From Paenibacillus sp. NFR01 (GTDB lineage: Bacteria; Bacillota; Bacilli; Paenibacillales; Paenibacillaceae), in assembly GCF_900111565.1 (NCBI RefSeq), contig NZ_FOIK01000003.1:1-64000 (forward strand): a DNA stretch of 64,000 nucleotides, given 5' to 3'. A model generated the notes under the pieces. That model saw only the letters and a program-made list of their open reading frames with translations. It made no database searches and was not told the origin of the DNA. The position numbers and the translations under genes are program-made. Of this stretch, positions 1 through 64,000 are shown one piece after another. Every line of letters begins with the position of its first letter. Position 1 is the stretch's first letter.

Positions 1-212
1 CTCCGTCTTTCATCCTCTCTTCAGGCGAAAAGAGGAATTATCCGGTATTAGCTACCGTTTCCGGTAGTTATCCCAGTTCATGGGGCAGGTTGCCTACGTG
101 TTACTCACCCGTCCGCCGCTAAGCTTATCCCGAAGGATAAACTCCGCTCGACTTGCATGTATTAGGCACGCCGCCAGCGTTCGTCCTGAGCCAGGATCAA
201 ACTCTCCATAAA
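1..212 (-). rRNA. rrs: 16S ribosomal RNA, 5' end only (runs off the window)
   Basis: The reverse complement begins near base 212 with the conserved 16S start (GAGTTTGATCCTGGCTCAG) and continues through the invariant stretch that starts GACGAACGCTGGCGGC and the V1-V2 region, as in Paenibacillus. Only about 210 bases of the roughly 1,550-base gene are present. Transcription runs leftward, away from oriC. The leader between the promoters and the gene holds a boxA-like antitermination motif (GATCTTTGAAAACTG on the minus strand, 281-295), usual for Firmicutes rrn operons. Confidence 0.97.
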
Positions 213-62578: not shown

Positions 62579-62607
62579 TTGACATCCATTTAATGCCTAC
62601 GTATACT
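62579..62607 (+). promoter_or_regulatory. Promoter of the riboswitch-amidohydrolase transcript
   Basis: Perfect -35 TTGACA (62579-62584), 17-base spacer, TATACT (62602-62607). The start near 62614 is about 13 bases before the aptamer. Confidence 0.88.
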
Positions 62608-62626
62608 AATAGCAAATTTACAGGTT

Positions 62627-62692
62627 GTTCGTATAACCCCGATAATCGGTTCGGGGGCTCTACTGGGGTCCGTAAAAATCCTAACTACGAAC
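62627..62692 (+). promoter_or_regulatory. Purine-family riboswitch aptamer with a variant core
   Basis: A 66-base aptamer. P1 GTTCGTA (62627-62633) pairs with TACGAAC (62686-62692); TATAA follows P1 as in guanine riboswitches. P2 is CCCCGA/TCGGGG, P3 TGGGGT/ATCCTA with loop CCGTAAAA, and the last joining bases AC place a C at the position (74) that selects guanine-type ligands. J2/3 ends CTCTAC, keeping the U51-type contact, but reads GGCTCTAC instead of GTTTCTAC, so the U47-type contact is changed. Altered ligand preference is therefore possible. Confidence 0.8.
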
Positions 62693-62731
62693 GCAATATC
62701 TACGATATTGCGCTCGCGGTTGGGATTTTTT
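62674..62731 (+). terminator. Riboswitch terminator sharing aptamer strands
   Basis: A stem of about 25 positions with two A.C mismatches and loop TAC: AAAAATCCTAAC and CGCAATATC on the left, GATATTGCG and GTTGGGATTTTT on the right. Its left arm contains the 3' strands of P3 and P1, so aptamer folding and full terminator formation exclude each other. Confidence 0.88.
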
Positions 62732-62760
62732 GCATTTTACATTTCAAAGGGAGGTTTGGC

Positions 62761-64000
62761 ATGAACACATTGCTGATCAAGAATGCCCGCAACCTTATCA
62801 CCATGGACTCGCAGCGCCGCTGCTACCCCGGAGGAAGCCTGTTCATCGAAGGGCAGGAAATCAAAGCCATCGGGACGGACATTCCCTACGAGGACGCCGA
62901 CACCGTCATTGACGGCTCGGGGAAGATCGTCTATCCCGGGCTGATCAATACCCATCATCACTTATACCAGACCTTTACCCGGAACATCCCCCGAGCCCAG
63001 GACTGCGAGCTGTTCGACTGGCTGCTGACGCTGTACGAAATATGGCGCCACATGAGGCCGGAGGATGTTTATCTGAGTGCCATGGTAGGCCTCGGCGAAT
63101 TGCTGAAGACTGGCTGCACGACCGCTTCCGATCACTTTTATTGTTTCCCGGACGGCGTGAGCGGAGAGCTGATCGACGAGGAAATCCGCGCCGCCGGAGA
63201 GCTCGGCATCCGCTTTTACCCGACACGGGGCTCCATGAACCTGGGCAGGTCCCAAGGAGGGCTTCCGCCGGACGAGGTGACGCAGACGGCGGAAGTCATT
63301 CTGAGGGACACCCGCCGGGTCATTGAAACCTATCATGACGCCTCCAAATTCTCCATGGTCCGCGTCGGCGTCGCGCCCTGCTCGCCTTTTTCGGTGTCCG
63401 AGGATCTTCTGCGGGAATCCGCCCGCCTGGCGCGCAGCTACGGCGTCCGGATGCATACCCACCTGGCCGAGACGAAGGATGAAGAGGAATTCTGCCAAGC
63501 AAAACTCGGACTCCGGCCTCTCGAATACATGGAGAAGACGGGCTGGATCGGACGCGATGTGTGGTACGCGCACGGCATCCATTTCAGCGGCGATGAAATC
63601 CGCCGGATGGGCGCCTGCGGGTGCGGCGTCGCCCATTGTCCGAGCAGCAACATGAAGCTGTCATCGGGGGTATTCCCTATACGAAGCATGCTGCAGGCGG
63701 GTGTTCACGTCGGACTCGGCGTGGACGGCTCGGCGTCCAACGACGCGTCCAATCTGCTCGGAGAAGCGCGACAGGCCTACCTGTTGCACAAGCTGACCGC
63801 CGGAAGCGCGGGTCCGACGGCTGAAGAAAGCTTATGGCTTGGTACGGTCGGATCGTCGAGAGTGCTCGGCTGGGAGGACGCGATTGGCTCTCTGGAGGTC
63901 GGCAAGGCGGGAGACCTGTTCATGATTGACTCGCAAAGGCTGGAATATGCCGGCGCTTTGTTCAACGACACGGCTCTGCCTGTCGTCACGGGCATCAGCC
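62761..64000 (+). CDS. Amidohydrolase, 8-oxoguanine deaminase / hydroxyatrazine-hydrolase-like (cut at window end)
   Basis: The first 413 residues of a COG0402-type amidohydrolase; the stop lies beyond the window. Metal motifs are INTHHHLYQTFTRN (about 63-76), MHTHLAET, YAHGIHF and LGVDGSASNDASN. The stretch TRNIPRAQDCELFDWLLTLY is typical of 8-oxoguanine deaminases and of the AtzB-like group. If correct it would deaminate 8-oxoguanine to urate; activity on guanine or another purine is possible. AAAGGGAGG precedes ATG 62761. It is preceded by a promoter, purine-type aptamer and terminator, which supports a purine substrate. Confidence 0.85.
   Translation, partial: MNTLLIKNARNLITMDSQRRCYPGGSLFIEGQEIKAIGTDIPYEDADTVIDGSGKIVYPGLINTHHHLYQTFTRNIPRAQDCELFDWLLTLYEIWRHMRPEDVYLSAMVGLGELLKTGCTTASDHFYCFPDGVSGELIDEEIRAAGELGIRFYPTRGSMNLGRSQGGLPPDEVTQTAEVILRDTRRVIETYHDASKFSMVRVGVAPCSPFSVSEDLLRESARLARSYGVRMHTHLAETKDEEEFCQAKLGLRPLEYMEKTGWIGRDVWYAHGIHFSGDEIRRMGACGCGVAHCPSSNMKLSSGVFPIRSMLQAGVHVGLGVDGSASNDASNLLGEARQAYLLHKLTAGSAGPTAEESLWLGTVGSSRVLGWEDAIGSLEVGKAGDLFMIDSQRLEYAGALFNDTALPVVTGIS

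Follow-up and report, generated by a model that had tools for sequence, protein, structure and literature searches.

A purine-family leader before an 8-oxoguanine deaminase gene in Paenibacillus sp. NFR01: a probable ON riboswitch for 8-oxoguanine

Genes and features of the locus

The DNA analysed here is a stretch of 64,000 nucleotides from Paenibacillus sp. NFR01 (the window), whose right end is occupied by a deaminase gene and its leader. The features identified in this region are as follows.

62579..62607, + strand: promoter-like site of the sigma-A type, TTGACA-17-TATACT (11/12 consensus positions)
62626..62693, + strand: purine-class aptamer (cmscan Purine match of 58.6 bits and folds of the aptamer part)
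62626-62633/62686-62693, + strand: P1
62637-62642/62651-62656, + strand: P2
62657..62663, + strand: J2/3, GCUCUAC, 7 nt, one less than guanine-I (cmscan alignment)
62664-62669/62678-62683, + strand: P3
62684..62685, + strand: J3/1, A73 and C74 (cmscan; C74 is the C at 62685)
62674..62731, + strand: intrinsic terminator, left arm formed by the P3 and P1 3' strands, followed by T6 (folding)
62746..62754, + strand: ribosome-binding site AAAGGGAGG (by eye)
62761..64000, + strand: 8-oxoguanine deaminase gene, 470 aa, running past the window end to about 64173 (NCBIfam NF006055)

A sequence-only reading of this DNA had described the gene as oxopurine-deaminase-like, and it can now be named an 8-oxoguanine deaminase by a curated cut-off. 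The full protein scores 598.1 bits against NCBIfam NF006055 (8-oxoguanine deaminase, an equivalog model with a cut-off of 532) and its in-window part 564.2 bits; the two guanine deaminase models listed score the full protein far under their cut-offs. The segments NTHHH-YQ, HTHLAE, AHCP-SNM and GVDGSASND are kept, and the in-window part is 98% identical to the counterpart in P. ihuae. The nearest solved structures are 3hpa (an amidohydrolase, 429.7 bits), which we take to be the entry of the Sargasso Sea 8-oxoguanine deaminase, and 7ww2 (8-oxoguanine deaminase, 423.9 bits). The Sargasso Sea enzyme was characterised by Hall et al. 2010, as told in PMC6186785, which gives urate as the product of 8-oxoguanine deaminase and describes related enzymes acting also on guanine, with xanthine as the product, and on isocytosine. 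Because of these further substrates, the identity of the gene alone does not fix the ligand of its leader. A larger operon was considered and rejected, since no further + strand ORF of 100 aa or more begins until about 370 nt past the deaminase stop; by reading, that ORF resembles a U32 peptidase. At the other end, the window begins at contig base 1, and the contig starts inside a 16S rRNA gene (window 1-212, - strand).

The aptamer and its short junction

The aptamer is matched by Rfam RF00167 (Purine) at 62609-62707 (+) with 58.6 bits against a gathering score of 37, over model positions 1-102 of 102 (cmscan), and it is the one Purine aptamer found by Rfam in the window. This is the covariance search that the sequence-only reading had proposed; it bears out the claim of a purine-class variant, and the alignment has a gap of one position in J2/3. 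The GTATAA and CCGTAAA segments and C74 are present, so that the TATAA and CCGTAAA segments and the ligand-reading C of that reading are all in place. At this score the element has the three-stem form of guanine-I, and U22, U51 and C74 are as in guanine-I (numbering per PMC9295807), where C74 pairs with the ligand (PMC9295807). Loop L2 carries GG and L3 carries CC, the kissing-loop contact between them being judged by eye. A chance match is ruled out by 58.6 bits at a 37-bit threshold together with the same core in 15 genomes.

The main peculiarity is in J2/3, which in the cmscan alignment has one position deleted relative to the 8-nt GUUUCUAC of the model. It had been noticed before that this junction differs from the usual one, and this stands; the 8-nt GGCTCTAC then given for it does not, its first G being the last base of P2. 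Folded alone, the aptamer part forms the three helices at -23.2 kcal/mol (z -1.6), and 14/200 shuffles fold as low, so the significance of the aptamer comes from the covariance model and not from its energy.

Terminator and predicted direction of the switch

The transcript up to the T-run (62726-62731) folds as a terminator, with the hairpin at 62674-62730, an MFE of -50.7 kcal/mol and a z of -6.0, and none of 200 shuffles is as low. The folds agree with the sequence-only reading that the left arm consists of the 3' strands of P3 and P1, and the promoter it had called consensus is likewise found, with 11 of the 12 positions. A simple terminator scan listed no terminator in the leader, probably owing to the length of the stem and its internal mismatches. 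When the aptamer is held in the window leader, the best energy changes from -46.0 to -32.5 kcal/mol, a cost of 13.5 kcal/mol, and the terminator base beside the T-run is taken away, while the upper hairpin remains. As the held aptamer removes the terminator base, a bound aptamer should let the polymerase pass, which is an ON design. The wiring of the leader as an ON switch, also proposed earlier, is thus supported by the folds predicted for the window leader and for 14 relatives. These mutually exclusive folds, like the aptamer family, the gene family and the conservation, are computed results.

Comparison of 15 leaders

The leaders compared are 15 in number, including 13 of the same genus (the one studied here among them) and two of the sister genus g2. 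All 15 have the promoter-like site; in all 15 the aptamer part alone gives the P1-P2-P3 fold, and in all 15 the full leader gives the terminator fold that takes P3' and P1'. These leaders bear on the reading that the element is a purine aptamer that has decayed or lost its function, before a gene expressed constitutively, as the one core nucleotide missing relative to guanine-I might suggest. We regard this as extremely improbable, since the aptamer core is nearly identical in the 15 genomes, with variation in the 5' flank and in the loop and right arm of the terminator, and both exclusive folds are kept in every one.

Among the 15 leaders the aptamer helices show hardly any variation and no double change. 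For the terminator helix 95.0% of the cells are paired, against at most 44.9% when the helix is slid. Double changes in the terminator amount to three pairs (18/500 shuffles as high) and six cells (3/500), one of the three pairs being an apical pair, which is mostly unpaired, and the count of pair types shows no increase (396/500 shuffles as high). A terminator slid by one column still gives two pairs and five cells with double changes, and the covariation is weak against this one-column slide.

Distribution among relatives

In the same genus, the deaminase is found at E <= 1e-100 in 13 of 100 genomes, the one studied here among them, and the variant aptamer stands just upstream of the gene in all 13, with 13 distinct leaders. 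The GCUCUAC form, which alone was searched for, occurs in the 100 genomes only before the 8-oxoguanine deaminase. Two further switches are found in genus g2 among 394 genomes of the family, which include the 100 of the genus; their deaminase-type gene was read by eye from the translation. The loose pattern TATAAN{16,28}GCTCTACN{3,9}CCGT gives many chance matches: in the 100 same-genus genomes it hits 39 places in 33 genomes. The real element accounts for 13 of these places; the other 26 cannot form P2 by their letters and were discarded by eye. The backward control of the pattern gives at least as many places. Over the 394 family genomes it matches in 71, and those retained by eye are the 13 together with G101, G134 and G386. 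A stricter pattern, run on 392 genomes of the order, matches in 11 genomes, namely nine of the genus, G134 and G386, with no match outside the family.

A named collection was also searched; of its 584 deaminase-like stretches, the 80 best were examined. Among these 80, a Purine match lies directly upstream in four, all Paenibacillus (P. rhizophilus, P. sinensis, P. zanthoxyli and P. ihuae). One more of the 80, L024, has a Purine match about 1.4 kb upstream of the deaminase, which was not counted as adjacent, and for the remaining 75 no Purine match reaches the gathering score within the stretch examined. As most of the deaminase homologues examined are without the switch, the switch is narrower in spread than the enzyme.

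Seven purine aptamers in one genome

The genome itself has seven Purine matches, before seven different genes, and apparently of four types: four are guanine-I-like, one guanine-II-like, one xanthine-II-like and one of the 8-oxoguanine type. Those beside the window's element include the following.

L001: 8-nt J2/3, without J3/1 insertion, before purE
L002, 1501-1623: guanine-type aptamer, before a FAD-dependent protein
L003: 8-nt J2/3, without J3/1 insertion, before a permease of the xanthine/uracil family
L004, 37-1599, - strand: guanine-type, C74, 8-nt J2/3, before a gene whose protein passes the cut-off for 5'-deoxyadenosine deaminase
L005: J3/1 insertion, U51, before a phosphoribosyltransferase-domain protein; like guanine-II
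L007: U51G, J3/1 insertion, before allantoinase; like xanthine-II

The features and genes used for the likeness of L005 and L007 are those of guanine-II and xanthine-II in PMC9295807. In the cmscan alignment four of the seven have an 8-nt J2/3 and are without a J3/1 insertion, and the window's element is the only one with a 7-nt J2/3, against 8 nt in the six others. The terminator stands apart from the aptamer in the L003 leader and, at one of two T-runs, in that of L001 (the other being mixed). Terminator and aptamer overlap in L002, L005, L006 and L007, and in L004 as well, where the overlap is clear only at the second T-run. Guanine-I is described as OFF, and guanine-II and xanthine-II as ON (PMC9295807), and the predicted folds in this genome fit these three directions. 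For two of the guanine-I-like aptamers, L002 and L004, ON-like folds are predicted. A genome with seven such aptamers is a natural set well suited to comparing how ligand choice responds to small changes in the junction.

Relation to known riboswitch classes

The 8-oxoguanine riboswitch class, as Hamal Dhakal et al. are said to have reported, is confined to Paenibacillaceae, always stands before 8-oxoguanine deaminase and acts as an ON switch. This family range, gene and ON direction all agree with our findings: the downstream gene is an 8-oxoguanine deaminase (598.1 against 532 bits), and the ON platform is predicted by the folds of 15/15 leaders and by the held-aptamer fold of the window leader. 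The variant class announced earlier is presumably tied to the same deaminase gene. In that announcement, Breaker and colleagues describe a guanine-I-like variant class that 'selectively senses' 8-oxoguanine (PMC9295807); in addition, a rare candidate class that selectively binds 8-oxoguanine is mentioned in PMC9971707, the class is also named in PMC9881172, and PMC11625349 cites the complete account by Hamal Dhakal et al. (PNAS 2023, doi 10.1073/pnas.2307854120). The window's element has the same guanine-I-like three-way junction, altered from guanine-I by its 7-nt J2/3, and no known difference from the class, the two being likened by the junction form described in PMC9295807 and by gene, direction and family. 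It is therefore most likely a member of this published class, and it adds a further instance of a rare riboswitch whose kind is already known.

The other classes of the scaffold differ from it in one way or another. Guanine-I shares the three helices, the GG of L2, the CC of L3, U22, U51 and C74; however, J2/3 in the window is one nucleotide shorter than its 8 nt, the window leader is ON by prediction while guanine-I is OFF, and the gene here is catabolic, unlike the purine synthesis, salvage or uptake genes of guanine-I. Xanthine-II and guanine-II share the scaffold, the predicted ON design and their occurrence in Paenibacillus (PMC9295807). Guanine-II was set aside, as it has junction insertions with U51, while in the window aptamer J2/3 is shortened by a deletion and J3/1 has no insertion; xanthine-II was set aside as well, as it has U51G with insertions in J2/3 and J3/1, while U51 is kept here and there is no insertion. 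The adenine riboswitch has the same scaffold, and in some relatives a deaminase gene downstream (adenine deaminase), but it needs U74, where the window aptamer has C at 62685.

Ligand and proposed mechanism

Given the gene association, the direction of the switch and the published class, 8-oxoguanine is the likely ligand, and the leader is very probably a transcriptional ON riboswitch that senses it. The sequence-only reading had named guanine, xanthine, 8-oxoguanine and urate as candidates; of these, 8-oxoguanine is favoured by the gene, the 13/13 association and the published class. From these we infer the ligand, its effect on readthrough and the physiological role. In the unliganded RNA, the downstream arm would pair with the 3' strands of P3 and P1 to form the terminator, and transcription would stop at 62726-62731. 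8-Oxoguanine may arise by oxidation of DNA, RNA or nucleotides; once it is bound in the junction, both P1 and P3 would be held and the terminator base could not form; RNA polymerase would then read on into the deaminase gene, and the enzyme would turn 8-oxoguanine into urate.

Guanine itself has to be weighed here, in an ON switch that tolerates the short J2/3 and has the enzyme made at guanine excess. With U22, U51 and C74 kept, the same 7-nt J2/3 before purE in the distant Bacillota genus g71, and homologues of the enzyme that also convert guanine to xanthine (PMC6186785), such a switch is conceivable, yet we consider it distinctly improbable: the genome already has four 8-nt aptamers without J3/1 insertion besides a guanine-II-like one, GCUCUAC stands only before this deaminase in the 100 same-genus genomes (searched in that form alone), and the announced variant class selects 8-oxoguanine (PMC9295807). 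If the ligand were instead a different product of purine oxidation or breakdown, for instance xanthine or urate, the leader would be a substrate- or product-side control, in keeping with urate as the product of the enzyme (PMC6186785) and with xanthine-sensing variants of the scaffold that look like ON switches (PMC9295807). This is very improbable for an aptamer that has neither the U51G nor the insertions of xanthine-II, in a genome where a U51G aptamer (L007) stands before allantoinase.

The same short J2/3 before purE in genus g71

Two narrow patterns, the 8-nt one of which finds just one of six aptamers of the own genome, were run on 289 genomes across Bacillota. The 8-nt pattern GTATAA...GTNTCTAC...CCGTAAA gives 63 places in 54 genomes, and the 7-nt pattern three places in three genomes, that is, the window's and two in genus g71, which belongs to another family, both before purE. 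In a draw of 398 genomes, GCTCTAC is found in the window and in three g71 genomes. Six genomes of the g71 family were then searched with the Purine model, five of g71 and one of a sister genus, with purE recognised by eye from the translations. In the purE leaders of g71 J2/3 reads GCUCUAC in three of the five genomes and GCACUAC in two, whereas the sister genus (one genome) has the 8-nt GUCUCUAC there. The five leaders are listed below.

L180 (G821), around 1501-1601: purE purine aptamer, 7-nt J2/3
L182 (G843), around 1501-1601: purE purine aptamer, 7-nt J2/3
L183 (G675), around 1501-1601: purE purine aptamer, 7-nt J2/3
L184 (G863), around 1501-1601: purE purine aptamer, 7-nt J2/3
L185 (G528), around 1501-1601: purE purine aptamer, 7-nt J2/3

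In L183 an aptamer of the ykkC scaffold comes next (Guanidine-I model, 54.9 bits, under the gathering score of 63, E 2.4e-9); by eye the other g71 purE leaders resemble this ykkC-type part, but no match in them reaches the gathering score. Three of the five g71 leaders were folded, and each forms its terminator when the purine aptamer is held. The arrangement resembles the guanine-PRPP tandem switches, in which the first aptamer binds guanine (PMC5912903), and guanine is the expected ligand of the g71 purE aptamers. Since the same deletion stands where guanine is expected, a short J2/3 alone is no proof of 8-oxoguanine sensing.

In g71, one nucleotide of J2/3 seems to have been lost a second time, independently. 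A wider reading, which we find rather unlikely, is that the short J2/3 has arisen twice, before the deaminase in Paenibacillaceae and before purE beside a ykkC-type aptamer in g71, and that either the deletion alone is not what sets the ligand or the purE switches also sense oxidised guanine. In the former case the 8-oxoguanine pocket would need something else, and in the latter purine synthesis would be tied to oxidative damage. The g71 purE aptamers are a cheap contrast on whether the deletion sets 8-oxoguanine specificity. As a separate observation on J2/3, at two loci of G386 (L148 and L154) adenine deaminase is preceded by an adenine-type aptamer (U74) whose junction has GGCUCUAC, where six congener loci have GUCUCUAC, so that one base is changed in G386, at position 47 by count.
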